From Fibrobacteraceae bacterium (GTDB lineage: Bacteria; Fibrobacterota; Fibrobacteria; Fibrobacterales; Fibrobacteraceae): 64,000 bases of DNA. Shown here piece by piece: positions 44,813 to 60,099 of this stretch. A program made the translations under genes and the position numbers. The notes under the pieces were generated by a model that saw nothing but the letters and a program-made list of their open reading frames with translations, had not been told where the DNA came from and did no database searches. How positions within the stretch are numbered: position 1 is the first letter of the stretch; every line of letters starts with the position of its first letter. The stretch is taken from the NCBI GenBank assembly GCA_017631885.1, contig JAGBSH010000005.1:62001-126000 (forward strand), given 5' to 3'.

Positions 44813-46228
44813 TTAGAAACAAACCCAATCTGGCTTAACGGATAATACAAGCATAGCGATAGCTGCAATAGCAATGCCTGCTTTTAAAATCCAAGAAGCA
44901 GAAACTGGTGGTTTTTCTTTACAGCAACAGCAACATTCATTCTTTGAACAAGCTGGTGCAAAAAGCACATAAGCGATTCGTAAATAGTAAACAGCTGCAA
45001 CAAGAGAAAGCGCAAAGGCTGCAGAAGCAAGTGCCCCATAACCTTCTTTGAACATTCCTGTAAAAAGAGAGAACTTGGCTAAAAAGCCTGCTGCAGGTGG
45101 TAAGCCAGCCAAAGAAGCGAGGCAAACAGCAATTGCAACACCTACACCCGGAGATTTACGAGCACGACCGCGCAACCCACAAAGTGTTTCACGCTTGTCA
45201 TCTTTTCCAGAAAGGTAAGCAATGCCTGTTAATGCACCAGCAGAAGCAACAGCATAAGTCACAAGGAAGAACTGTAAAGCTCCGCCAAAGAATTCGTTTG
45301 AGCCTTCTTTGTGAAGGAACAATGCACAAAGCATAAAGCCAGCGTTCATTACAGCAGAGAATGCTAAAATGCGACGAATAGATTTTTGTGCAAGGCCTGA
45401 GAAAGCACCAATAATCATTGAAGCTAAAGCAACGATAGCCACAACAATTTTCATAGATGAATCAAGAGCCATATCAACCCAAAGAGAAGCAATGGCTGCT
45501 AATGCCCCGACCTTAACAACTGCTGCCATAAATGCAGTTACCGCCACAGGAGCACCCGTATAAACATCGGCTACCCAGAAATGAGCAGGAGCAGCACCAG
45601 CTTTAAAGAACAATCCTAATAAAACTAAGAAAGCACCTATTTTAAACAATGGCAAACGACCATCTAAAACAGTTGCAGCAAATTGTGTAGAACCAGTTGC
45701 ACCATAAAGCAATGCGACACCATAAAGGAAAATAGCACTGAAAATAGCACCTGTCACAAAATACTTGAACACACCTTCGTTTCCATTTACATCTTTACGA
45801 CGAATGCCTACAAGAGCGTAAACTGGGAATGCCGCAAGTTCCATGCCAAGGAAAAGAGAAAGGAAGTTTGTGGAAAGTGCCATTAAAATAGCACCAGCTG
45901 AAGCTAAAAGCATTAAACCATAAGCTTCACCACCTTGGAACTTTTCACGAGCAAGAGTCCACTGTACGCCACCTATTCCCAAAAATAGACAGAATAAAAT
46001 TGTCAAGGAAAAGAGTCGACGCATAGAGTCCATTGTGTAAACTTGGTAATAGCTTCCATCTGGGGAAACTATCAATGATGCTGCCGCTAAAACAGTAAAG
46101 ACTACTGCAACCCAAGGCAAAACAGAATGTTTGTTTTCGTTTTGCAAAAATGGTTCTGCGGCGATGGTGACTAATGCACCTAAAACGGCTACCAAAACCG
46201 GCAATAAAATCAAAAGTGAATTAGTCAT
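44813..46228 (-). CDS. nuoN: NADH-quinone oxidoreductase subunit N
   Basis: An antiporter-like membrane subunit of complex I, 471 residues with about 14 membrane helices. VGALAAIASLWVDM-type helices and the LAQKSIRRILAFSAVMNAGF motif identify the family, as does LAGLPPAAGFLAKFSLF. An unusual loop near residue 430 reads PACSKNECCCCCKEKPP, with seven Cys in eleven residues; standard NuoN has none there. It overlaps nuoM by eight bases and is the last gene of the operon. Confidence 0.97.
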   Translation of the reverse strand: MTNSLLILLPVLVAVLGALVTIAAEPFLQNENKHSVLPWVAVVFTVLAAASLIVSPDGSYYQVYTMDSMRRLFSLTILFCLFLGIGGVQWTLAREKFQGGEAYGLMLLASAGAILMALSTNFLSLFLGMELAAFPVYALVGIRRKDVNGNEGVFKYFVTGAIFSAIFLYGVALLYGATGSTQFAATVLDGRLPLFKIGAFLVLLGLFFKAGAAPAHFWVADVYTGAPVAVTAFMAAVVKVGALAAIASLWVDMALDSSMKIVVAIVALASMIIGAFSGLAQKSIRRILAFSAVMNAGFMLCALFLHKEGSNEFFGGALQFFLVTYAVASAGALTGIAYLSGKDDKRETLCGLRGRARKSPGVGVAIAVCLASLAGLPPAAGFLAKFSLFTGMFKEGYGALASAAFALSLVAAVYYLRIAYVLFAPACSKNECCCCCKEKPPVSASWILKAGIAIAAIAMLVLSVKPDWVCF

Positions 46229-47777
46229 TTGTAGAACCCTCCAAAGCAGATTCTGTTTTAACCGAATCTACGATTTGATTTTCAAGAGCCCCTTCAGTAA
46301 CGTTAAGTGTATCTTGTGGGACTGCTGTCGGGATTTCTTCGACTACAGGAGCATTAACTGGTTCTGTAGTGCGTATTTCGTAAATGAGTCCTGGACGTAA
46401 TCCAAAGAGAAGTAAAAGGAAAAGGAATGCCCCAATGACAGAACCTTCTAATACACCAAGATGCACCGAATTTTCTTCACACTGATTTGCTTTTCCAAAA
46501 ATTACTCCTTGAATCAAACGGAGCATATAAGCTGCAGAAAGAACAAGGCAAATTGCCCCAACCAATGTCGGTAAAGGGCCTACATCCCAGAGAGAAAGCA
46601 TTACAAGAAATTCACCAATAAAGCCAGCAGTTCCTGGAACAGCTAAAGCAATGATTCCTGCTGCCCCGAACAAGAAACCAAATACAGGTTTTGATTTTAC
46701 AAGACCGCCCATTTTAGAAAGCTCGCGTGTTCCTGTCATACGTTCTGCTACTCCAGAAAGCAAGAAGAGAGAACCAGCTGAAAGACCGTGCCCGACAAGC
46801 AAAACGAGAATTGCTGGGAACATTTTAGGGCTAAATGTGAATATTGCAGCAACAGCTAAACCTAAATGCCCCATAGAACTGAATGCCAAAATTTTCTTGA
46901 CATCTGTTCCGCGTAAAGCCATTAAACCGCCATAAACAGCAGTTATAAGACCAAGCCAGAGCATTGTGGTAAAGAAGGTTTCTGACAATGTAAACAAAGA
47001 AAGAACCCAAATTAAAATTCCATAAACACCAACCTTTGACATAGCACCAGTAAGGATTGCTGATAAAGGAGCTGGGGATTCAGCGTAAGCACTTGCTTGC
47101 CAACCATGGAATGGGAAAATAGGAGTCTTTACTAAGAACGCTAACAAGAATGCAATAGCAAGTGTGGCTTGATTTTCTGCAGATTCACCTTGAAGGAATG
47201 TGAAAAGATCAGAAGCCGTTGTTACACCACTTTTGGCAACCATATACCAAAGAGCTATTGCCATTGGAGCAGAACCCACTAATGTGTAAATTGCAAAATT
47301 CATAGCTGCTGGTTTTCTGTCTTTTCCACCATAAGCAGCCATCAAAAGAGCCGCCGGAATAACCATAGCTTCAAAGAAGAAGAAGAAAAGAACAGCGTCA
47401 AGAGCAAGAAATGCTCCGTTCATTGTTCCAAGAAGCGCTAAAATTCCTACCGAGAAATTTTTGAATTCGCCTTCTGCAACAGAAGATTTTGCAAAAACAA
47501 GTGATGCAAGAGAAAGTACACAAGAAAGGAAAACAAGCCAAGCATTGATTGTGTAAGAGCCTAACCAATATTTGACAGAAGCATCGCTACCTGGAAGTTT
47601 AAACCAATCAATAGCAGTTGTTGTCAAATCTCCGCCTGCAATCAAAGCTACTGAAGCTAGCGAAAGAAGTGCTGCAGAAAATAGTGACAAACGATAAGCT
47701 GAAGTGCCACGACCACCTACAAGAGCAACGAGCAAAGCAGCAAAGAACGGAGCTAAAACTAAAATATGTAATAACAT
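46221..47777 (-). CDS. nuoM: NADH-quinone oxidoreductase subunit M
   Basis: The second antiporter-like proton-pumping subunit, 518 residues. Family motifs are FFFFFEAMVIPAALLMAAYG, KTPIFPFHGWQASAYAESPA, LSAILTGAMSKVGVYGIL and KKILAFSSMGHLGLAVAAIF. The ATG at 47777 overlaps the nuoL stop by one base (TAATG); an upstream in-frame start at 47828 lies inside nuoL and is rejected. The C-terminus has a ~55-residue polar tail (VPQDTLNVTEGALENQIVDS) beyond the last helix, longer than usual. Confidence 0.97.
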   Translation of the reverse strand: MLLHILVLAPFFAALLVALVGGRGTSAYRLSLFSAALLSLASVALIAGGDLTTTAIDWFKLPGSDASVKYWLGSYTINAWLVFLSCVLSLASLVFAKSSVAEGEFKNFSVGILALLGTMNGAFLALDAVLFFFFFEAMVIPAALLMAAYGGKDRKPAAMNFAIYTLVGSAPMAIALWYMVAKSGVTTASDLFTFLQGESAENQATLAIAFLLAFLVKTPIFPFHGWQASAYAESPAPLSAILTGAMSKVGVYGILIWVLSLFTLSETFFTTMLWLGLITAVYGGLMALRGTDVKKILAFSSMGHLGLAVAAIFTFSPKMFPAILVLLVGHGLSAGSLFLLSGVAERMTGTRELSKMGGLVKSKPVFGFLFGAAGIIALAVPGTAGFIGEFLVMLSLWDVGPLPTLVGAICLVLSAAYMLRLIQGVIFGKANQCEENSVHLGVLEGSVIGAFLFLLLLFGLRPGLIYEIRTTEPVNAPVVEEIPTAVPQDTLNVTEGALENQIVDSVKTESALEGSTND

Positions 47778-49720
47778 TAGAGAAGCCCTCCGCGAACTAA
47801 TACAACAACCACAAGAGCCACAACGCAAATAATGCTAAGAGTCATTTGCAAACGCACTTTTGCCACTTGCAACCCACTGACGAAATCTCCAAGAAGTTCT
47901 CCAAGACCGCCAACCAACCATTGAAGCATCATTACAAAGCGGTTAACAACATTTTCTGCAATCCAAGCAAGCACTTTAAATGCGTTAATGAATACTCCAT
48001 GCAACTTATCAAAGCAGAATGTCCAAGTTGCACCCAAGCCTTCTGGAGCAGAAGAACCCTTTGGCAAAGGAATCCGACGGTTCGCATAAAGTTTCCAAGC
48101 AACGAACATTCCAAAGACTGCTGCAATGGTGCCAAGCAAGGCAAAAATCCATGGCGATACATGTGCCCCACTATGAGCAAATGAAGCCTGAGCCACACCA
48201 ACAACCGGTGCAAGCATTTGTTCAAAGAGATTTGCGCCAGGAATAAGACCTGCCCAAAGGAAACCTGCAAAAATGGAACCAAAGGAAAGGATAACCATTG
48301 GAATAAGCATTGATGCCGGAGCTTCGTGGACATGCTTTTCAAGTTCTTCACCACCACGGAATTTACCAAAGAAGGTAAGAACCATAAGGCGACCCATATA
48401 AATAGCGGTAATGACAGCAGTCAAAAGAGCTATTGCATAAAGGAATGGTCCCATTGGGCCAGAAACATACAAACGTTCAAGAATCAAATCTTTAGACCAG
48501 AACCCTGCAAAACCAGGGAACCCGATAATGGCAAAGAAAGCAAAAAGCATTACACAAGCAGTTACAGGTGTTTTCTTTAGCATGCCACCCATTTTACGCA
48601 TATCTTGTTCGCCTGCAAGTGCATGAATCACAGCACCAGCTCCAAGGAAGAGAGCGGCTTTAAAGAAAGCGTGAGTGAATACATGGAAAATAGAAACATC
48701 AAATGCAGCAACACCTGCAGCCATGAACATGTAACCAAGCTGAGAAATGGTTGAATAAGCTAACACTTTCTTGATATCGTTTTGGAAAAGCCCAGCAACA
48801 GCAGCCCAGAAAGCAGTAAGCAAACCTATAACCACTACAACTGCCATTACTTGCGGCAAAAGAACATACAAATCAGAAAGACGAGCTAAAAGATAAACAC
48901 CAGAAGTCACCATGGTTGCCGCATGAATCAATGCAGAAACTGGTGTTGGACCAGCCATAGCATCTGGAAGCCAAGTCAAAAGTGGAATCTGAGCTGATTT
49001 ACCCGTACAACCTACAAAGAACAAAAGCCCTGCAAGAGCGAAAACCGGGAAAAGAATCTTAATGAGTTCTATATTACCAGCATCGCGAAGGAAAGCAGAA
49101 AGTTCACGATAGGAAAGTAAATCGCTTGAAACCATCGCAAGGCAAAGCATACCAAGAATAAAGCCCAAGTCACCAACGCGGTTTACAATAAATGCTTTAT
49201 TTGCTGCTTTACAATTATTTGTATCAGAATTCCAAAAACCAATCAGCAAGTAAGAACAAAGTCCAACGCCTTCCCAGCCAAGGAATGTTAAAAGCAAGGA
49301 ATCAGAAAGGACAAGCACAACCATGCTAAAGAGGAACAAGTTAATGTAAGCAAAGAAACGAGCAAAACCTCTGTCTCCATGCATATAACCTGTAGAATAC
49401 AAGGTTATCAATGTTCCAATCCCTGTAACAAAGAGGAGCATGATACGGGAAAGGGAATCAAAGAGAAAACCAAAACTTGCTTTAAATGAACCGACATCAA
49501 TCCAAGTTCCTAATGTTTCTTGAATCCCTTGCGCAGGCATATTCCAGCCAATAACAACTGTAGAAACAAAAGCAAGAAGTGGGAACATTACTGCAAGTCC
49601 GCCAACTATTCCTTCTGTTGCTCCTTTCTTTGAACCAGTAGAAGCAAGAGTAATAGCTGCAAGAACAACCGTTCCAATCAATGGGAACAGCGGAATGAGC
49701 CAAAGAGGAAGATTTGTCAT
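47777..49720 (-). CDS. nuoL: NADH-quinone oxidoreductase subunit L
   Basis: The largest antiporter-like subunit, 647 residues, with the long lateral helix in its C-terminal half. Recognisable segments are LFVTGIGTLITLYSTGYMHG, LGWEGVGLCSYLLIGFW, AQIPLLTWLPDAMAGPTPVS followed by ALIHAATMVTSGVYL, and KKVLAYSTISQLGYMFMA. It contains the conserved Lys and Glu expected for proton transfer. The ATG follows the nuoK stop by three bases. Confidence 0.98.
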   Translation of the reverse strand: MTNLPLWLIPLFPLIGTVVLAAITLASTGSKKGATEGIVGGLAVMFPLLAFVSTVVIGWNMPAQGIQETLGTWIDVGSFKASFGFLFDSLSRIMLLFVTGIGTLITLYSTGYMHGDRGFARFFAYINLFLFSMVVLVLSDSLLLTFLGWEGVGLCSYLLIGFWNSDTNNCKAANKAFIVNRVGDLGFILGMLCLAMVSSDLLSYRELSAFLRDAGNIELIKILFPVFALAGLLFFVGCTGKSAQIPLLTWLPDAMAGPTPVSALIHAATMVTSGVYLLARLSDLYVLLPQVMAVVVVIGLLTAFWAAVAGLFQNDIKKVLAYSTISQLGYMFMAAGVAAFDVSIFHVFTHAFFKAALFLGAGAVIHALAGEQDMRKMGGMLKKTPVTACVMLFAFFAIIGFPGFAGFWSKDLILERLYVSGPMGPFLYAIALLTAVITAIYMGRLMVLTFFGKFRGGEELEKHVHEAPASMLIPMVILSFGSIFAGFLWAGLIPGANLFEQMLAPVVGVAQASFAHSGAHVSPWIFALLGTIAAVFGMFVAWKLYANRRIPLPKGSSAPEGLGATWTFCFDKLHGVFINAFKVLAWIAENVVNRFVMMLQWLVGGLGELLGDFVSGLQVAKVRLQMTLSIICVVALVVVVLVRGGLL

Positions 49721-49723
49721 AGA

Positions 49724-50038
49724 TTACCCCTTCATTCCAGAATAGTTATCAGAATCGACACTTTCCTGATTACGGAAAATCAAAATTACCATAGCAAGGC
49801 CAACGCAAGCTTCTGCTGCTGCCACTGCAATAGTAAACAAAGGAACGATCTGGCCAGCAAGACTTAAATCAGCTGGCAATGTTTTTGAAAAACCAATCAA
49901 GCTTAGATTAACTGCATTCAACGCAAGTTCTACGCCCATCAAAACGAAAAACACGTTCCGGCGAGAAATCGCAGTTAAAAGCCCTATTACAAAAAGGACT
50001 AAAGCCAAAATCTGAACATATACAGCCTGGAGTTCCAT
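49724..50038 (-). CDS. nuoK: NADH-quinone oxidoreductase subunit K
   Basis: A three-helix subunit of 104 residues. RRNVFFVLMGVELALNAVNL contains the conserved membrane Glu, and AVAAAEACVGLAMVILIFRN contains the second. Length is standard. Its ATG overlaps the nuoJ stop by one base. Confidence 0.97.
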   Translation of the reverse strand: MELQAVYVQILALVLFVIGLLTAISRRNVFFVLMGVELALNAVNLSLIGFSKTLPADLSLAGQIVPLFTIAVAAAEACVGLAMVILIFRNQESVDSDNYSGMKG

Positions 50039-50577
50039 TAGTTTTCACCTCCTTCTGTTTCATTTGTAGTTCCAAGACGACGTTTTGCCATTAAAACAGC
50101 AGCAACCATAGCAGAAAGTAAAAGCAAGCCAACGACTTCAAACAAAATGAAATAACCATGACCTGATTTTGCAGTATCAAACAAAGTTGCAGATGTCAAT
50201 GCAACTGAACCTCGCCAAGTTTCTGCGCTGAAAGCCAAAGGAGTAGAAACTAAAGCAAAGCCAAGTAATGCACCTAATGCTATCACTGCTGGGAAAACAA
50301 AGAGTGAAACTTTGTCAAAGCGCGGGGTTCTTGAATCACGAGCACCATTCAAGACCATGATAACAAAAGTTAAAAGCATCATGATAGCGCCAGCATAAAC
50401 CATCACTTGAACAACTCCGACAAATGGAGCGCCAAGTAAACCATAAATACCGGCAAGAGAAAGCATTGAAACCACTAAGGACAATGCTCCATAAAGCGGA
50501 TGTCTAGCAAACAAGACACACAAAGCTCCGCCAACAGCTATTACAGCTAATATGATAAAATAAATCAATGCTAGCAT
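50038..50577 (-). CDS. nuoJ: NADH-quinone oxidoreductase subunit J
   Basis: A five-helix subunit of 179 residues. HPLYGALSLVVSMLSLAGIY, VGVVQVMVYAGAIMMLLTFV and the following IMVLN are the family core; the last marks the pi-bulge helix. It ends with a short charged tail. The ATG shares a base with the nuoI stop. Confidence 0.97.
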   Translation of the reverse strand: MLALIYFIILAVIAVGGALCVLFARHPLYGALSLVVSMLSLAGIYGLLGAPFVGVVQVMVYAGAIMMLLTFVIMVLNGARDSRTPRFDKVSLFVFPAVIALGALLGFALVSTPLAFSAETWRGSVALTSATLFDTAKSGHGYFILFEVVGLLLLSAMVAAVLMAKRRLGTTNETEGGEN

Positions 50578-51149
50578 TAGTTTACCTTCATCCCCCAGGC
50601 ATCGAGAGCCTGTTGATTTAAAGTACCACCCGGAGCCATTTGACTCTGAGAATCATTTTGCGGATAAGTTTTCGGATCCCAAGTCATTAAATCAAACATC
50701 GGAGCCACAAAATCATCGCGCTTTGGATGCACGTAACTCGTTTCGCAAGTATCCATACGAAGAGCATCTACTGGGCAAGCTTCTACGCATAGCCCGCAGA
50801 AAACACAAACCAAGTGGTCAATATCAAAACGAGCCGGAGCTTTTTCAATACGAGGGTCTTCAGTTTCTGCCGCTTCAATGTAAATACAATGAGCCGGGCA
50901 AGCTGCTGCACACATACCGCAAGCAACACAACGCGGCATTCCGTCTGGACGAAGCATCAAGCGATGCCTTGCACGATAGTTCCTTGGAATTTCCGGTTTC
51001 ATTTCCGGATAAGGAACTGTAGGTAAAGTTTCATAGCGAAGCAAACCACGAAGGGCGTGTTTCAATGTGGTAAAAAGACCGCGAAGAGCTTCAAAAACGT
51101 AAAGACGTTCTACCCAATTCATCGGTTTTTGTTTAACTTGACGAACCAT
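50577..51149 (-). CDS. nuoI: NADH-quinone oxidoreductase subunit I
   Basis: The peripheral-arm ferredoxin-like subunit, 190 residues, carrying clusters N6a and N6b. The two motifs are CVACGMCAAACPAHCI and CVFCGLCVEACPVDAL, each with the expected CxxCxxCxxxCP spacing. I chose ATG 51149, which overlaps the nuoH stop (TAATG), over the in-frame start at 51227 inside nuoH. The C-terminal ~30 residues after the clusters are polar. Confidence 0.97.
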   Translation of the reverse strand: MVRQVKQKPMNWVERLYVFEALRGLFTTLKHALRGLLRYETLPTVPYPEMKPEIPRNYRARHRLMLRPDGMPRCVACGMCAAACPAHCIYIEAAETEDPRIEKAPARFDIDHLVCVFCGLCVEACPVDALRMDTCETSYVHPKRDDFVAPMFDLMTWDPKTYPQNDSQSQMAPGGTLNQQALDAWGMKVN

Positions 51150-52507
51150 TAGTTGCCTCCCAGAAGTTTTGCAGCAATTGCTGTGACGACAAGGTTCAAA
51201 ATGGCAATATTCAAAAGTATTTTCCAACCAAGATGCATGACATGGTCATAACGGAAACGTGGTAATGTCCAACGCACCCAAATCCATACCCAGCAGAAGA
51301 ATACTGCTTTTACAAGCAATACAAGCAATTGGATAAGAGCTGTACCAAGAGCAACGCCAAATCCATAAACAGCTTCTCCATTTATGATTTGAACTTCTGG
51401 GTGTATGAACATAGCAGAAAGTACACCGAGAACAGCAAAGACTACTACAGCACACCAGCCCAGAATCTTATACAAAGAATATTCGCGCAAAATAACTTCT
51501 TTGTTTGTGGCAGCGCAAGTCTTGTACCAACGAGCGTAGCGATAAAGCAAATGGAGGAACGCAAGAACTGCTACAGCACAAACTCCACAAAGAACGCCTA
51601 AAGAAATTCCCAAATTGCTTTGGACAGTTTCCATAGATACAAACGGAATGGAATAACCGCCAAGGAAAAGGCAAGCAACCAAAATACTGTTTATACCAAT
51701 GTGGCTATATTCACCCATGTAGAAAAGACCAAACTGCATAGCACCATATTCAGTATGGAAACCTGCAACAAGTTCTGGTTCACCTTCTGCAACGTCAAAC
51801 GGAGCACGACCTGTTTCTGCAATCATTGCAATCAAGAAACAGAAGAACGCTACTGGCTGAGCAACAATACCCCAAACATTCGCGTCTTGCCAAGCGATAA
51901 TTTCATCAATACGGAATGTGCCTGCAAGTAAGAGCATGCCCATAAGGCAAAGGCCTAAGCAAACTTCATAACTGATAGTCATTGCGCTTGTACGAAGGCC
52001 ACCAAGCAAGGAGAACTTAGATTTAGAAGCCCAACCTGCAAGAACCGCACCGTAAGCTGACAAAGAAGAAAGGCCAAAAAGCAAAAGAATGCCAACTTCT
52101 GTATCTACTGTCATTCCTGGAATTTTAATGACTTGACCACCAAATTCAAATACCATCGGGGCAAACCAAGGAATAACACAAGGCGAAATCAGCACGATTG
52201 CAAAAGGAATCGCTGGAGCTAACATGTAAATCCATTTGTTTACACCAGCAGGAGCAAACATTTCTTTGAAGAAAAGTTTCGTTCCATCACAAGCGTTCTG
52301 CACCCAACCGAAAAGGCGAATGCGACCAAAATATGGAATTTTAATGTAAGAACGGTTTGGACCTTGACGGTCTTGGATAAAACCTGCTCCACGACGTTCC
52401 ATCGGGATAAGCAACAAAATGAAAAGAATAGGAACAAAAGCAAACGCAAACTTTGCTATCGTAATAATCCATTCAATCCAATGTTTTGATTCAATAATAT
52501 CCATCAT
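51149..52507 (-). CDS. nuoH: NADH-quinone oxidoreductase subunit H, enlarged
   Basis: The quinone-chamber subunit, 452 residues, against about 325-350 in most bacteria. The conserved parts are LLIPMERRGAGFIQDRQGPN, FGWVQNACDGTKLFFKE, and the quinone-site loop IAETGRAPFDVAEGEPELVA followed by GFHTEYGAMQFGLFY. Between IPFVSMETVQSN and LVLLVKAVFFCWVWIWVRWT lie about 110 extra residues with two or more added membrane helices (LGVLCGVCAVAVLAFLHLLY, ILGWCAVVVFAVLGVLSAMF). The ATG overlaps the nuoG stop (ATGA). Confidence 0.96.
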   Translation of the reverse strand: MMDIIESKHWIEWIITIAKFAFAFVPILFILLLIPMERRGAGFIQDRQGPNRSYIKIPYFGRIRLFGWVQNACDGTKLFFKEMFAPAGVNKWIYMLAPAIPFAIVLISPCVIPWFAPMVFEFGGQVIKIPGMTVDTEVGILLLFGLSSLSAYGAVLAGWASKSKFSLLGGLRTSAMTISYEVCLGLCLMGMLLLAGTFRIDEIIAWQDANVWGIVAQPVAFFCFLIAMIAETGRAPFDVAEGEPELVAGFHTEYGAMQFGLFYMGEYSHIGINSILVACLFLGGYSIPFVSMETVQSNLGISLGVLCGVCAVAVLAFLHLLYRYARWYKTCAATNKEVILREYSLYKILGWCAVVVFAVLGVLSAMFIHPEVQIINGEAVYGFGVALGTALIQLLVLLVKAVFFCWVWIWVRWTLPRFRYDHVMHLGWKILLNIAILNLVVTAIAAKLLGGN

Positions 52508-54108
52508 AATTGCACTCCATCGAGCATAACACCCGTGCTGCGGATGGTTTCATAGGAATAAGCAGATAATACATTTGCCATTTTCTTAGCTAAAGCAAAC
52601 GCTTCACATGCACAAGAAAGTGGTGTTTCTGCAAGTTCAGCTAAAACACTAAATGCAGGGCGTAATTCAGCATCTGGTGAAACCGGTGCCGCAGACAATT
52701 TCTGCAACATTCCATTGCAGTTAACCATTGTGCCCTGAACTTCACTCCAGTGATTTACACCAAGCGCTACTGTAGAAGCTTTAACTGTCGCATTGTTAAA
52801 TGCAGAAAGAGCAATTTTTTCAGGAATCGCACCCAAAATTTTTGCTGCGTTTTCATTTTCAAACAAATCGCAATGGACAGAAAGCAATACAGAAAATTCA
52901 CTTACTCGTTTCAGTAATTCTTCTAAGTTACCAGCAGGCAAACCAAGAAGCTTCATACCGGCACGGTTTGCAACAGGGTCTCCGCTTTTTGCAATACCAT
53001 CAGCAGCAAGAACAGGAGCAAAGGAACCTGTGAAAATTTCAGCTCTTTCTCCTAATTTTTCTGCAAGTAACTTTAAAGCAGCCAAGTCTTCGATTGTACA
53101 AGAGCCGCCAGCAACTAAAGCCACCTTGCCTTCTTTAGCAAGAGTTTGTTTAATTGGAGCTACATCACCTGCTGGCATACGATCTTTTAAAAAATTCTGA
53201 TAAGCTAAACGGCTCGTATTAGAAAGCCAACTACGGTTTACTTCAGGGTTACAACGAGGCATCAAGCGCCATACTTTACCTTCTGCATGGTCAATCCAAA
53301 TGTTTGCACCTAAAGAATCATCCATAGAAATACTTGGAGTGCGAGAAAGCAACCAAACTCTCTTTTGGAAACGGAAATGTTTGCCAGTCATTGCGCCAGT
53401 CGGGCAAATATCTGTAACGCACAAATCGTATTCATGATCAAGCTTTTCACCAGGGAATGTGGTAATGTAAGTATGATCTGCACGGGAAGCAAGTTGGAGT
53501 TGTTCATCGCCAGCAATGCTTCTCATAAAGCGTACGCAACGATCACATTGTACACAACGTTCTTCATCAAGAACAATTCGTGGGCCAATATCTACACGTT
53601 TACCGCCACGAACTTGACCTTTAGAATCAATAAACTGGTGAGCTGGATTACCGTGATAATTTTTGCCATATTCAGGGCGCATACGAGATTCATTCTGCCC
53701 GGCTTCCATGTAATTTTCTTGCAAAGTACATTCACCTGCTTTATCGCAAATTGGGCAATCAAGTGGGTGATTCACAAGCATAAATTCTTGTGTTGCTTTA
53801 CGCGCACTCTTTACACGTTCGCTAGAAGCAGGCGTATAAATTTTCATTCCAGGAGAAACTGGTGTATAGCAAGCAATCACCAACATGCGACCACGAGGGC
53901 CTTCTTGTTCCACCAGACATTGGCGGCAGTTTCCAGAAACTGGAAGATAAGGGTGATAGCAAACGTGAGGAGTTTCAATCCCGACAGCTTTTAATGCTTC
54001 GAGAAGATTGGTATCGCCCGGAACCATTACAGCCTTATCGTCCACGAAGATTTCCACCTTCGGGCTGTTTTCGGTCGGGAGTTTTGGCATATTGTAATAG
54101 TTACTCAT
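52504..54108 (-). CDS. nuoG: NADH-quinone oxidoreductase subunit G, short form
   Basis: The 534-residue subunit carries a chain of iron-sulfur clusters. The N-terminal 2Fe-2S site is HVCYHPYLPVSGNCRQCLVE with a later Cys; next are the His/Cys3 cluster (LVNHPLDCPICDKAGECTLQ) and the 4Fe-4S motifs CVQCDRCVRFM and CVTDICPTGAM. The molybdopterin-oxidoreductase-like C-terminal region is reduced compared with the ~900-residue E. coli protein. ATG 54108 follows the nuoF stop; the start at 54180 lies inside nuoF and is rejected. Confidence 0.95.
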   Translation of the reverse strand: MSNYYNMPKLPTENSPKVEIFVDDKAVMVPGDTNLLEALKAVGIETPHVCYHPYLPVSGNCRQCLVEQEGPRGRMLVIACYTPVSPGMKIYTPASSERVKSARKATQEFMLVNHPLDCPICDKAGECTLQENYMEAGQNESRMRPEYGKNYHGNPAHQFIDSKGQVRGGKRVDIGPRIVLDEERCVQCDRCVRFMRSIAGDEQLQLASRADHTYITTFPGEKLDHEYDLCVTDICPTGAMTGKHFRFQKRVWLLSRTPSISMDDSLGANIWIDHAEGKVWRLMPRCNPEVNRSWLSNTSRLAYQNFLKDRMPAGDVAPIKQTLAKEGKVALVAGGSCTIEDLAALKLLAEKLGERAEIFTGSFAPVLAADGIAKSGDPVANRAGMKLLGLPAGNLEELLKRVSEFSVLLSVHCDLFENENAAKILGAIPEKIALSAFNNATVKASTVALGVNHWSEVQGTMVNCNGMLQKLSAAPVSPDAELRPAFSVLAELAETPLSCACEAFALAKKMANVLSAYSYETIRSTGVMLDGVQL

Positions 54109-54112
54109 ATTA

Positions 54113-55420
54113 TTACCAGAAAATTCCAGGACGGCTTGTTTCTTGAACGCGCGGTTTTGCACGGTCAGGGTTCTTTGCAATCAATTCATCAAAGTCACTG
54201 CGGAACTTTGTCGTGTAAGAACTCACAGGTCCACCTAAAGAAACGGAAAGAGGGCAAATAGTTACTCCACCAAATCCGTTAGAAAGGCTTTGCATAAATT
54301 CTACATCTCCATCGTGACCTTTGCCTTCAACAATTTGATTTAAAATTCTATGAATAAGCCCGGTGCCTTCACGACAAGGCGTGCATTGACCGCAAGATTC
54401 GTGGCTATAGAAATTACCAAGAACATTCAACAATTCTGCCATGTTATGAGTATCGTTAATGACAATCATAGCACCAGAACCAAACATGGTTTTCATAGAA
54501 GCGAGGCATTCGTAATCCATTGTAGCAACAGCACATTCTTCAGCTGTTAAAGGCGCACAAGAAGAACCACCAGGAAGCACTGCTTTCAAGTTACCACCAA
54601 CAACGCCACCAGCATAATCATTAATCATGGTCATCATTGGCGTTCCTAAAGGAGCTTCATAGACTCCTGGATTTTTTACATCACCTGAAATACAGAATAC
54701 TTTAGTTCCGCCAGCACGTGGTGTTCCAAGTTTTGCATATTCTTCTGGTTCATGCTTGAAAATCCAAGGCAATGCCATAATCGTTTCTACGTTATTTACG
54801 CAAGTTGGACTTTTCCAAGCACCACTTACCGCTGGGAATGGAGGTTTCAAACGAGGTTGCCCTTTTTGACCTTCAAGCGAGTTAATAAGAGCCGTTTCTT
54901 CACCGCAAATATAAGCACCAGCACCACGATGAACGAAAATATCAAAACTAAACTTGGTTCCGCAGATATTTTCGCCAAGGTAACCTGCTGCATAAGCTTG
55001 GTTCAAAGCCTTGTTCAATGTTTCAATACAAGGCAAAAATTCTCCACGAACATAAATGTAAGCAGAACGACTTCCAAGAGCCCAGCCAGCAATAATTAGA
55101 CCTTCAATTAAACGATGCGGATCTTCCATCATTAAATAATGGTCTTTGAAAGTTCCGCCTTCGCCTTCGTCTGCGTTCACTACAATGTAAACAGGCTTTC
55201 CTGAATTGCGAGGAACAAAACTCCATTTCATACCTGTAGGGAAACCAGCACCGCCACGACCACGCAAATTAGAACGTTGTACATAGTCAATGACTTCAAA
55301 TTGACTCATATTGAACAGGCGTTCTGAAATGTTTTCATAGCCACCCAATTTCTTGTAAACTTCAATATCCTGGGCGCCTTTGCCAAAGTTTTCAGTACAA
55401 ACTTTTACACACTCTGCCAT
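54113..55420 (-). CDS. nuoF: NADH-quinone oxidoreductase subunit F
   Basis: The NADH-oxidising flavoprotein, 435 residues. NADH and FMN sites are SNLRGRGGAGFPTGMKW, VNADEGEGGTFKDHYLM and HRGAGAYICGEETALINSLE; the N3 cluster is bound by ESCGQCTPCREGTG and a later Cys (VTICPLS). Length and order are standard. It starts three bases after nuoE. Confidence 0.98.
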   Translation of the reverse strand: MAECVKVCTENFGKGAQDIEVYKKLGGYENISERLFNMSQFEVIDYVQRSNLRGRGGAGFPTGMKWSFVPRNSGKPVYIVVNADEGEGGTFKDHYLMMEDPHRLIEGLIIAGWALGSRSAYIYVRGEFLPCIETLNKALNQAYAAGYLGENICGTKFSFDIFVHRGAGAYICGEETALINSLEGQKGQPRLKPPFPAVSGAWKSPTCVNNVETIMALPWIFKHEPEEYAKLGTPRAGGTKVFCISGDVKNPGVYEAPLGTPMMTMINDYAGGVVGGNLKAVLPGGSSCAPLTAEECAVATMDYECLASMKTMFGSGAMIVINDTHNMAELLNVLGNFYSHESCGQCTPCREGTGLIHRILNQIVEGKGHDGDVEFMQSLSNGFGGVTICPLSVSLGGPVSSYTTKFRSDFDELIAKNPDRAKPRVQETSRPGIFW

Positions 55421-55423
55421 AAA

Positions 55424-56482
55424 CTAAACCGCCTTTTCTTCAGGAACAGGTTTCTGTGTTGCAACAGCTTCTAAAGAAGGTTTAGCGACACGTTCACCAG
55501 AGGTTGCTATCATGCGATAAGTATCGCCAACTTTACCAGTAGCATCTACAAAGCATTTGTCTTTTACGCTTGGTTCGCCGACCACTTCCCAATTAGAACC
55601 GTTTTTCTTTTCAACGACAAGTTTTGTGAATTCAGGAGCACCTTTCCAAGTTAATGACGCACCTGTTTCATCGGCTTCTGCTTTTACATTCAAAACAGGA
55701 CTTGGTGGCGCGTAATCAGCAACTTGTGGTTTAGCTGTGGCACCAGGAGCATTTGGGTGCCCCATATGACCTTTTACGATTCCTCCCAAGACATCGCGTT
55801 TTGGAACGTTGTTGGCATGAGCTTTACACCATTCAACAATTCTATCGATGCTTTCTTCGGTAAGGGTTGTGCCGCGTTTCATTTTTAACTGGCCATCTAC
55901 AACATCAGTTGCAAAATCGTCGTTCACAAGCATCATCGGACCATTACCACAGCTTCCAAGACATTCTACTTGAAGAATCGTAAAGAGACCATCTGGAGTG
56001 GTTTCGCCCGATTTAATACCAAGTTTATTTTCAATGTACTTGATTAAAGGTTGCGCGCCTTTGATTGCACAACTGATATTTCTACAGAATTGCAAAAGGA
56101 ACTTGCCTTTTGGAGCGTGATTATACATGGTGTAGAATGTTGCAACCCCAAGTGCATGAGCTGGAGCACAGCTACAAACTTCTGCAGCCCAGCGGATACC
56201 TTCTGTTGGAACCCAACCGAGAACGCCTTGCACGAGCCATAATACTTCAAGAAGAGCGCCTTGTGGTTCTGGGTAACGAGAAAGCAAATCTGCACAACGA
56301 TCTTTAATTTCAGGAACGTCTAGCAAAGCACGAACTTCTTCACGAGAAGGTTGTTTCTGTTCTTCGTTTTTCTTTTGAACCGGAGCGGCAGATGACGGAC
56401 GCACAAACAGAGGTTTTGGTCCGTCTTCAAATTTCAAATTGTTATTGGCGACGAAATGGATAGCGCCTTGTTTATGGTTCAT
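55424..56482 (-). CDS. nuoE: NADH-quinone oxidoreductase subunit E with C-terminal Fn3-like domain
   Basis: A 352-residue protein, about twice the usual 160-180. Residues 1-48 are a polar extension. Residues ~49-222 are normal NuoE: a helical bundle and a thioredoxin-like 2Fe-2S domain with C133/C138 (CRNISC) and C174/C178 (CLGSC). A linker rich in Gly/Pro/Ala follows. Residues ~259-343 look like a fibronectin type III domain (PPSPVLNVKAEADETGASLT, then KLVVEKKNGSNWEVVGE and TYRMIATSGERVAKPS). The ATG overlaps the nuoD stop by four bases. No frameshift is needed to read the fusion. A structural or docking role of the extra domain is inferred. Confidence 0.94.
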   Translation of the reverse strand: MNHKQGAIHFVANNNLKFEDGPKPLFVRPSSAAPVQKKNEEQKQPSREEVRALLDVPEIKDRCADLLSRYPEPQGALLEVLWLVQGVLGWVPTEGIRWAAEVCSCAPAHALGVATFYTMYNHAPKGKFLLQFCRNISCAIKGAQPLIKYIENKLGIKSGETTPDGLFTILQVECLGSCGNGPMMLVNDDFATDVVDGQLKMKRGTTLTEESIDRIVEWCKAHANNVPKRDVLGGIVKGHMGHPNAPGATAKPQVADYAPPSPVLNVKAEADETGASLTWKGAPEFTKLVVEKKNGSNWEVVGEPSVKDKCFVDATGKVGDTYRMIATSGERVAKPSLEAVATQKPVPEEKAV

Positions 56483-57672
56483 CGATCCAATTCTCCTGCA
56501 ATAATGTTAATACTAGAAAGTGTAGCCATAGAGTCAGCAAGCATTGTGCCTTCCACTAATTCTTGATAAGCAGCAAACTGCGTTAAGCAAGGTGGACGAA
56601 CTTTTATACGCCATGGTTTTCCAGAGCCATCAGAAATCAAAGTGAAACCGAGTTCACCATTTGCAGTTTCAGATCCGCAATAATGTTCACCTTTAGGAAC
56701 GCGAATGCCTTCATAAACACTCTTAAAGCGACCAATCAAAGCTTCCATATCTTGATAAGCAAGAGCGTGAGCAGGCACACGAACGCGTGGGTCAACAATA
56801 TCAATAGGGCCAGGAGCTAAGCGTTTCAAAGCTTGGCGCACAATTTTAATGGATTCTTCAATTTCTGCTAAACGAACCATTAAGCGATCATAAACGTCAC
56901 CTTTTGTGCCAACGACAACGTTCCAATCATATGTTTCGTAATCGTAATAAGGTTCGTCTTTACGCAAGTCGCTAGCAACACCTGTAGCTCTAAGGCATGG
57001 GCCTGTCCAGCCATAAGAAATAGCGCGTTCTGGAGAAATCACACCAACGTTTGTCGTTCTGTCTAAGAAAATTCTGTTGCGGTCAAAGCAAGCATGAACG
57101 TCTTTCAAGTTACGTTCTGCTGTATTACAAACATCAAGGACATCTTCTTCAAAACCGTTGTAAAGGTCTCTATAAAGGCCACCGATTCTTGAATAACTAT
57201 TTGTTAAACGAGCGCCTGTGAGCTTTTCCCAGATAACCATCGTTTTTTCACGGCTATCAAACAAATAGAAGAAACCTGTGGTAGAACCTAAATCCTGTGC
57301 TGCTGCAGCCACACAAATACAGTGGTCAGCCATACGAGAAAGCTCATTAACGATAACGCGAATAACCTTAGTGCGTTCAGGAATTTCAACGCCAAGCATT
57401 TCTTCGACGGCACGGCAATAAGCGATGTTATTCATAATCGCAGAACAGTAATTCAAACGGTCTGTATAAGGCAAAACTTGTTGCCAGGTTCCACGTTCAG
57501 CCATTTTTTCAAAACCGCGATGCAAGTAACCAATTTCAGTTTCGCATGCCACAATTGTTTCGCCATCCATAGCGGCCATATAGCGTAAGCAGCCATGTGT
57601 TGCAGGGTGAGAAGGGCCTACGTTCAAAGGCATCAAGGTTTGTTTTTCACCATTAGGATTCAATACTATCAT
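56479..57672 (-). CDS. nuoD: NADH-quinone oxidoreductase subunit D
   Basis: The 49-kDa-type subunit lining the quinone pocket, 397 residues. Motifs: NVGPSHPATHGCLRY, ETEIGYLHRGFEKMAERGTW, RLNYCSAIMNNIAYCRAVEE, ELSRMADHC, and GELGFTLISDGSGKPWRIKV near the end, with the conserved His and Tyr that contact quinone (YLHRG, LPYTDRLNY). It overlaps nuoC and nuoE by four bases each. Confidence 0.98.
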   Translation of the reverse strand: MIVLNPNGEKQTLMPLNVGPSHPATHGCLRYMAAMDGETIVACETEIGYLHRGFEKMAERGTWQQVLPYTDRLNYCSAIMNNIAYCRAVEEMLGVEIPERTKVIRVIVNELSRMADHCICVAAAAQDLGSTTGFFYLFDSREKTMVIWEKLTGARLTNSYSRIGGLYRDLYNGFEEDVLDVCNTAERNLKDVHACFDRNRIFLDRTTNVGVISPERAISYGWTGPCLRATGVASDLRKDEPYYDYETYDWNVVVGTKGDVYDRLMVRLAEIEESIKIVRQALKRLAPGPIDIVDPRVRVPAHALAYQDMEALIGRFKSVYEGIRVPKGEHYCGSETANGELGFTLISDGSGKPWRIKVRPPCLTQFAAYQELVEGTMLADSMATLSSINIIAGELDR

Positions 57673-58274
57673 ACTTTGCAGCTCCCTTCGAGGTATTCAC
57701 CATCATTTGGCAAAACTTCTTTAGAACGAGAAACAATGCGATACCCTTTCTTTTCTAAACGAGCTTCCAATTCAGGCAACAAATAATCGTTTGTAGAAAG
57801 CCATTGTCTTTTGTGAGCCGGATAATCCTTACGAAGTGGATGACCTTCAAATTCAGCATGGTTCAACAAACGACGGAGGTCCGGGTGTCCTTTAAAAACA
57901 ACACCATACTGGTCAAAGACTTCACGTTCTTGCCAGTTTGCAATTGCATAAAGGTCATGAATTGAAGGAACATTACAATCTGCTTCAGAAACAAAAACCT
58001 TCACACGCATACGTTTCACAGGTGCTTTCATCGTTTTAAGCACATATTCTACCGCAAAACGAGGACCTTCGTAATCTTTAAAGCCTTGGTAATCAATGCC
58101 GACTATATCTAAAAGCATGTCGAACTTAGCACTCTGGTCATCGCGTAAAAAGAGCATCAAATCGTGCAAATTTTCTCTATCGACCACAACAGTCAGTCCC
58201 TGATGGTCAGCTTCTTCACGACGAGCACCAAACTTTTCTTCAAGGATAGCCAAAAGCTTTTCACAATCTGCCAT
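57669..58274 (-). CDS. nuoC: NADH-quinone oxidoreductase subunit C
   Basis: The 30-kDa-type subunit, 201 residues, as a separate gene and not fused to nuoD. FDMLLDIVGIDYQG and EREVFDQYGVVFKGHPDLRR followed by LLNHAEFEGHPLRKDYP are the family signature. The last ~40 residues are a basic extension. The start follows nuoB by three bases. Confidence 0.97.
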   Translation of the reverse strand: MADCEKLLAILEEKFGARREEADHQGLTVVVDRENLHDLMLFLRDDQSAKFDMLLDIVGIDYQGFKDYEGPRFAVEYVLKTMKAPVKRMRVKVFVSEADCNVPSIHDLYAIANWQEREVFDQYGVVFKGHPDLRRLLNHAEFEGHPLRKDYPAHKRQWLSTNDYLLPELEARLEKKGYRIVSRSKEVLPNDGEYLEGSCKV

Positions 58275-58277
58275 AGC

Positions 58278-58913
58278 CTACTCCTTCCAGAAAGCAACCT
58301 TTTTCAAAAGATTGTCTTTCCCGTCTTTAATCGTTTGCACACCGCAAGAAACGGCATTTTTAACTGCCTTTTCTGCATTTTCTTTACATTCAGCCGTTTT
58401 AGCCTTAATCATTTCAAGCTGTTCTTTCACACGTTCAGCACGTGCTTTCATATAAGATTCATCTTGAATTTTTTCTTGCAATTGGAACATTGCGTCAAAG
58501 AAAGATTCCGGGCGAGGAGGACAACCGCCGATATAAACATCTACTGGAATGATATGGTCAATTCCAGGGACTGTGCAATAAGCATCGTAAAAACCACCAG
58601 AACTAGCGCAAGCGCCCATAGCAATCACCCAACGAGGTTCAGCCATCTGTTCATAAATTCTTTTCAGAATCGGAGCTTGCTTATAAGTAATTGTCCCGGC
58701 CACAAGCAACACATCGGACTGACGTGGAGTAAAACGCACATATTCAGAACCAATACGAGAAAGGTCGTAACGAGCCGTTTCCGTACTCATAAATTCGATA
58801 GCACAACAAGCCGTTCCATAAGGGAATGGCCACAATGAATTCTTACGCCCCCAATTGACAATAAAGTCAAGGGACGAAGTAATGATGTTGGCTTTTTCCG
58901 CCAAAGCAGTCAT
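58278..58913 (-). CDS. nuoB: NADH-quinone oxidoreductase subunit B
   Basis: It binds the N2 4Fe-4S cluster, the last in the chain to quinone. The 211 residues contain GTACCAIEFMS (tandem Cys), GACASSGGFYDAY, and GCPPRPESFFDAM. The C-terminus has about 60 extra charged, coiled residues (ESYMKARAERVKEQLEMIKA and so on). ATG 58913 has GAGG at the right distance; starts at 58934 and 59000 are in frame but lack this. It is the first gene of the operon: nuoA does not precede it. Confidence 0.96.
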   Translation of the reverse strand: MTALAEKANIITSSLDFIVNWGRKNSLWPFPYGTACCAIEFMSTETARYDLSRIGSEYVRFTPRQSDVLLVAGTITYKQAPILKRIYEQMAEPRWVIAMGACASSGGFYDAYCTVPGIDHIIPVDVYIGGCPPRPESFFDAMFQLQEKIQDESYMKARAERVKEQLEMIKAKTAECKENAEKAVKNAVSCGVQTIKDGKDNLLKKVAFWKE

Positions 58914-59118
58914 AGGTACCTCACAAATATCCATGCGAAATATAGCAACCCTGTTAAAAAAAATCGCACTTTTTTGCTTATTAAATGCAAATATGCGCAT
59001 TATTTAACTTTAAAACTAATTTTTGCGCTTAAAACAAAACCCCGTTTCTAAGATAAATTTTTAATAATTCTATGAAAAATTAATCAAGAAACTTACTCAA
59101 ATGAGCAGTAATTTTAGT

Positions 59119-59301: not shown

Positions 59302-60099
59302 TTATTTTTCTTCTGCTCTTGATTGTGCTTCAAACTCCTTCATTTTCAGTTCGTTAATCATCGTTTCAAGATCGCAGATTTCACCATCGCCATACAACTC
59401 ATAGCCAATTCCAGACCATTTTGAGGCATTCCCTTCGTTAACCTTCTTATCGTAAGTCAGTTCAGCAAGACTCCATTTAGCGATAATGTTCTTTGCGACC
59501 TTTTCAATATCATTCCCAATATTCTTAAGCATCAGACTATAATATTTGCCAAAGCTACGGTTTCCAATGCTAGATTCCTTTTTGCAATTAGGGCAAATCG
59601 CAGTTGCTCTTGAACTTCCCGAAAGAGGCGACCCGCTAAACGAACGAATAACGGCCGTATCGCCACATTTGCATTTTATTTGAAACTGCTCAGAGTTCCA
59701 AATTTCAAGAAGCGTTGAAAGTTTGAGATTGATATTGACAAGAGTTCCAGAAAAGTTGAACTGCCTTGCGGTAGCAAGAGGCCCCACATAAAGTCCACCG
59801 CCACGAATAAGATAATGTGCGTCAATATTTGCATACCGCGCTGTAGCACAAATTTCATCTCTATGACGTAAGATTAGGTCTAAGGATTCATAGAACAACG
59901 AGTATTTACGTTTATTACGACTAGCCCTAAGTTCCCGCAGATTCTCCTGGTCCTTTTTTTCTAATTCCATTTGATCGCTGATAAGTTTCAATTTTGCCTT
60001 CTGGCGATTGCAATAATTTGCAAAAGTTTCGCGTTTGTTATCCGACTTTGCAAGGAAATTCGGAAAAGGTTTTGTGTCATTGATATATATTGTAGCCAT
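59302..60099 (-). CDS. Orphan protein with a central zinc ribbon, function unknown
   Basis: A 265-residue protein. Residues ~25-75 are strongly charged and probably coiled (RQKAKLKLISDQMELEKKDQ). The middle has a zinc-ribbon pattern, IKCKCGDTAVIRSF followed by ICPNCKKESS. The C-terminus is again helical and charged (LETMINELKMKEFEAQSRAE). I recognise no family. ATG 60099 has an AGGAG site. A 15-bp-arm palindrome lies 35-76 bases upstream. The gene is enclosed by repeat copy 4 on one side and REP-like repeats on the other, and looks like an inserted accessory gene. Confidence 0.75.
   Translation of the reverse strand: MATIYINDTKPFPNFLAKSDNKRETFANYCNRQKAKLKLISDQMELEKKDQENLRELRASRNKRKYSLFYESLDLILRHRDEICATARYANIDAHYLIRGGGLYVGPLATARQFNFSGTLVNINLKLSTLLEIWNSEQFQIKCKCGDTAVIRSFSGSPLSGSSRATAICPNCKKESSIGNRSFGKYYSLMLKNIGNDIEKVAKNIIAKWSLAELTYDKKVNEGNASKWSGIGYELYGDGEICDLETMINELKMKEFEAQSRAEEK

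Follow-up and report, generated by a model that had tools for sequence, protein, structure and literature searches.

Complex I is among the best-studied enzymes; the main role ascribed to its extra subunits is to stabilise it. Within the peripheral arm, NuoE and NuoF lie side by side at the NADH end. Fibronectin type III (Fn3) domains of bacteria are usually located on secreted proteins. The peripheral arm of Escherichia coli complex I is stabilised by C-terminal extensions of NuoB, NuoI and NuoF and by a loop of NuoG, and these elements overlap what are supernumerary subunits in other species (PMC8357420). They comprise tails of 22–45 residues and a 94-residue loop, none of them on NuoE (PMC8357420). 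With 166 aa, E. coli NuoE is without such an extension (PMC8357420, Table 2).

The window (the whole stretch of 64,000 nucleotides analysed here, from a Fibrobacteraceae bacterium) contains a run of nuo genes. Apart from the Pfam-matched NuoB, NuoE and NuoG, gene names in this run were assigned by eye from the sequence.

44813..59000, minus strand: nuo run nuoB-C-D-E-F-G-H-I-J-K-L-M-N, which contains nuoE (ORF lists; Pfam for NuoB and NuoG)
55424..56482, minus strand: nuoE, 352 aa, complex I subunit of the 24-kDa type with a predicted C-terminal Fn3 module (ORF; PF01257, E=2.6e-43)
54113..55420, minus strand: nuoF, 435 aa, the next gene
52504-54180, minus strand: NuoG, 558 aa, of which Pfam recognises only the end of the molybdopterin-type domain

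An earlier note on this DNA gave the limits and length of the nuoE frame exactly and left the strand unstated. The plus strand over 55424-56482 contains many stops in the ORF reading. nuoF lies in the same frame as nuoE: the TAG of nuoE is followed by one codon and then by nuoF. In the 2.37-Mb draft genome PF01257 matches nuoE alone. As this is the sole NuoE of the genome, the Fn3 module belongs to the complex I type equipped with the NADH module.

Another complex I cluster lies at about 6269-16313 of L115 (contig C10:18000-36000). Its genes are nuoA to nuoD and nuoH to nuoN (names partly by eye), with nuoE, F and G absent; this genome therefore has complex I of two types. The nuoB-N run lacks nuoA (nuoB end: 58278-59000). 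A lone NuoA gene is present on another contig (L116:7634-8101, contig C17), and nuoA was not found upstream of nuoB in Fibrobacter loci either. NuoB carries a C-terminal extension of ~65 residues (approx. 58281-58475, minus strand), which is Lys/Ala/Glu-rich and probably helical. The adjoining ORF of 265 aa (59302-60099, minus strand) has no Pfam match at E <= 0.01.

With NuoE, Nqo2 and NDUFV2 the protein of the window has in common the 2Fe-2S thioredoxin-like core, the four cluster cysteines and the gene order nuoDEFG, whereas an N-terminal extension, a linker and the Fn3 module are added.

56315..56482, minus strand: N-terminal extension, residues 1-56 (alignment; dN/dS 0.147)
55868..56314, minus strand: 2Fe-2S thioredoxin-like core, residues 57-205 (Pfam, alignment)
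55715..55867, minus strand: post-core C-terminal helix and Gly/His/Pro/Ala-rich linker, residues 206-256 (alignment, AlphaFold2, dN/dS)
55454..55714, minus strand: predicted Fn3 module, residues 257-343, ~87 residues (PDB profile, AlphaFold2, Foldseek, dN/dS)

Pfam 2Fe-2S_thioredx (PF01257) matches residues 65-198 with E=2.6e-43 and 147.8 bits (curated cut-off 24.8). The score against NCBIfam nuoE_fam TIGR01958 is 141.3 bits, slightly below the cut-off of 142.4. The cluster ligands Cys133, Cys138, Cys174 and Cys178, from which a complete 2Fe-2S domain had already been read, are all present and are invariant in 20 aligned NuoE sequences, including three alphaproteobacterial relatives. Judged by these sequence features, the electron-transfer core is of the ordinary type. 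The N-terminal extension (~56 residues), absent from the earlier note, is conserved, yet it is the fastest-evolving part of the protein. The linker (~50 residues) carries the motif LGGxVKGHxGHPGAPGA. It is predicted to be disordered, with pLDDT values mostly below 50 from residue 228 on, where the AlphaFold2 model starts. Its conserved His/Gly/Pro part, KGHxGHPGAPGA (55739-55774, minus strand; shorter in genus g5), may be a short motif for binding or for a metal.

The C-terminal module described in the earlier note is real and conserved, and its limits are now drawn more tightly at residues 257-343. None of the 19 members is matched by a Pfam fn3 (PF00041) model, and the module is absent from the genome-wide PF00041 matches. 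Weak Pfam hints include a rhamnogalacturonan lyase beta-sheet domain. When a profile from 19 relatives was compared with the PDB, the top six matches were all Fn3: an FN3con variant (E 1.1e-4), a Clostridium thermocellum Fn3-like protein (4.3e-4), FN3con (1e-3), two Fn3-containing titin chains and then CtXyl5A. These are followed by the rhamnogalacturonan lyases YesX and YesW with E > 0.1.

An Fn3 domain is a sandwich of seven strands. The AlphaFold2 model of residues 228-352 (17 sequences) is Fn3-like, with six strands of at least three residues and short pieces at the expected site of strand G. Block means of pLDDT are 74-92 across residues 268-347, and the same strands recur in a separate, larger NuoE-NuoF model. 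Foldseek with the module model gave 26 PDB matches at E <= 0.001 (E 1e-4 to 1e-3); those listed are overwhelmingly Fn3 domains or Fn3-containing proteins. Normalised to stand-alone Fn3 domains, the TM-scores are 0.70 (3mpc) and 0.73 (7jgu). A Trp in strand B and a Tyr in strand F are signature residues of Fn3, and the corresponding Trp279 and Tyr322 do not vary among 19 relatives, which come from two families.

The C-terminal module is predicted to be an Fn3 fold. The earlier note had called it Fn3-like, which agrees with the PDB profile, AlphaFold2 and Foldseek; the predicted structure of the C-terminal region came out Fn3-like, not disordered. The Pfam fn3 miss is a matter of the detection threshold of one model. 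It lowers the Fn3 claim without removing it, since the claim rests on the fold. Compared with the Fn3 domains of C. thermocellum (3mpc), CtXyl5A (5g56) and FN3con, the module has the same strand pattern with the signature Trp and Tyr, whereas its sequence is too divergent for Pfam fn3. The nearest bacterial matches belong to secreted enzymes, while the subunit that carries the module described here belongs to a respiratory arm on the cytoplasmic side. No second copy was found elsewhere in the genome at E <= 10.

Across 121 genomes searched, near full-length alignments to the fusion occur throughout the Fibrobacteraceae (family f1) and in f4, a family of the same class. By name, the relatives are Fibrobacter succinogenes, Fibrobacter sp. 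and, at 99% identity, a Fibrobacteraceae MAG. Every f1 genome with nuoE in this search has the module, one of them as a contig-end fragment only. A module-only profile found the fusion in 97 of 168 Fibrobacterota genomes; the seven f1 genomes without a nuoE match in the smaller search are also without the module in this larger one. The module matches sit in NuoE-sized frames, apart from contig-end fragments, one weak match in a protein of 937 residues and MAG G059, the sole genome with a broken frame at the fusion. Frameshift, misassembly or chance extension is ruled out as the origin of the fusion, since it recurs in 97 genomes.

NuoE of family f3, which is of the same class, has an unrelated C-terminal tail and no Fn3 module. 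Conservation of the extension within Fibrobacterota, raised in the earlier note, therefore holds for f1 and f4, where it is neither missing nor a separate gene, and does not extend to f3. The f3 tail (L047-L051) is itself conserved, with the pattern GAR..KDPY...RTT.VPPPL.TPLTAPV. As it differs from the Fn3 tail, the NuoE C-terminus was apparently extended twice in the class. A tree of NuoE cores places f3 at a clear distance from f1 and f4; the module accordingly follows a single nuo lineage. The tree leaves the branching order among f1, f4 and the alphaproteobacterial rows unsettled, and one gain would be its simplest interpretation. The gene encodes a real clade-specific NuoE, and the nuo lineage common to two Fibrobacterota families has the fusion.

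E. coli NuoG has 908 aa. NuoG of f3 (about 510-640 aa) is similarly short to that of the window, without an Fn3 module on NuoE; the module thus shows no specific tie to the shortening of NuoG, and compensation for a short NuoG by the module is not favoured.

Values of dN/dS were obtained from 59 near relatives by Nei-Gojobori counting of pooled pairs, not tree-corrected. The N-terminal extension has 0.147, the iron-sulphur core 0.074, the linker (residues 206-254) 0.108 and the module (residues 255-340) 0.086. Purifying selection acts on the module nearly as tightly as on the iron-sulphur core. Such conservation shows that the module matters and does not reveal its purpose. Given its retention under selection throughout the family, it probably helps to hold the complex together or to bind a partner. 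Three loops form the linker-side pole of the modelled domain.

55625..55642, minus strand: BC loop GAPEFT, residues 281-286 (conserved pole, conservation analysis)
55556..55576, minus strand: C'E loop EPSVKDK, residues 303-309 (conserved pole, conservation analysis)
55478..55498, minus strand: FG loop GERVAKP, residues 329-335 (conserved pole, conservation analysis)

These loops score 3.32 bits versus 2.58 bits for the opposite pole (one-sided p = 0.017, from a single post hoc test with loop limits taken from the model), and the better conservation of the linker-side pole is suggestive only.

By analogy with E. coli, the favoured reading of the module is a built-in supernumerary domain that would dock on the peripheral arm and stabilise the NADH module; the probability of this reading is put at about 0.5. 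The flexible linker would let the Fn3 domain reach neighbouring subunits of the arm. It may then dock via the conserved BC/C'E/FG pole onto NuoF, NuoG or NuoI. The docked domain would stabilise the NADH module; E. coli uses its tail extensions and the NuoG loop to such an end. In both cases the additions are lineage-specific and are made to core subunits of the peripheral arm, while the NuoE described here has a complete folded domain on a linker. We infer the docking surface and the stabilising role; likewise, we infer a cytoplasmic location of the module because NuoE sits in complex I and has no obvious signal peptide. NuoE and NuoF were also modelled as one chain with the TAG of nuoE read as Gly, which is a modelling device and not biology. 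The confidence of this model (pTM 0.34, pLDDT of NuoF mostly below 50) is too low to read docking either way.

Counting against the stabilising role, the predicted disorder of the linker also fits a free tether, and the similarly short NuoG of f3, where NuoE has no Fn3 module, speaks against a tie to NuoG shortening. As the main rival, the module may be a tether that reaches beyond the tip of the peripheral arm and binds a separate cytosolic protein, for example an NADH-producing dehydrogenase or a regulator. Complex I would thereby be brought near its electron source or be controlled. The flexible linker (pLDDT < 50), a conserved loop pole of the type used by Fn3 domains for binding and the strong selection on the module are consistent with this. 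Conservation, however, cannot tell an outside partner from an adjacent subunit, and the nuo operon consists of nuo genes only, with no non-nuo gene as a candidate partner. The tether is a tentative alternative, on the unlikely side. Its more specific form, a dedicated docking domain through which Fibrobacter complex I would be linked, at its NADH tip, to one specific cytosolic partner, is doubtful. To our knowledge, no comparable tethering device is known in any other complex I.

The module might also aid folding, iron-sulphur insertion or NuoE-NuoF assembly and have no role in the finished complex. It is carried by the subunit that is established to pair with NuoF in the NADH module, and the flexible linker would suit such an aid. 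Against this, NuoE of family f3 has no such module; the reading is improbable.

Fn3 domains are mobile, and a domain of a secreted protein may have joined nuoE by chance and been tolerated without function. The sole other module-like protein in the phylum search, the weakly matched protein of 937 residues from an f4 genome, has ordinary Fn3-like repeats and looks by eye like a secreted peptidase. Capture of an Fn3 domain of a secreted protein by nuoE is plausible. A functionless passenger, on the other hand, is already disfavoured by the measured selection: dN/dS of 0.086 is almost as low as that of the iron-sulphur core, and the module is retained in f1 wherever nuoE is found and also in f4. 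This reading is very unlikely. That the module is a small beta sandwich other than Fn3 would accord with the lack of Pfam fn3 matches in all members and the weak rhamnogalacturonan lyase hint, but it is highly improbable given that the leading profile and Foldseek matches are Fn3 and that the strand B Trp and strand F Tyr are invariant.

Among the papers searched, none combines NuoE and fibronectin type III, and neither NuoE (under that name) nor fibronectin is mentioned in a survey of complex I variants from 2025. The listed PDB Fn3 matches, from the profile and from Foldseek alike, include no complex I chain. The Fn3-bearing NuoE is a new form of a known subunit. A complete Fn3 domain on a core subunit, present across two families of bacteria, amounts to a natural experiment in the origin of extra parts, and the domain could be removed with the electron-transfer core left intact. 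It would be a bacterial Fn3 domain adopted for intracellular use.
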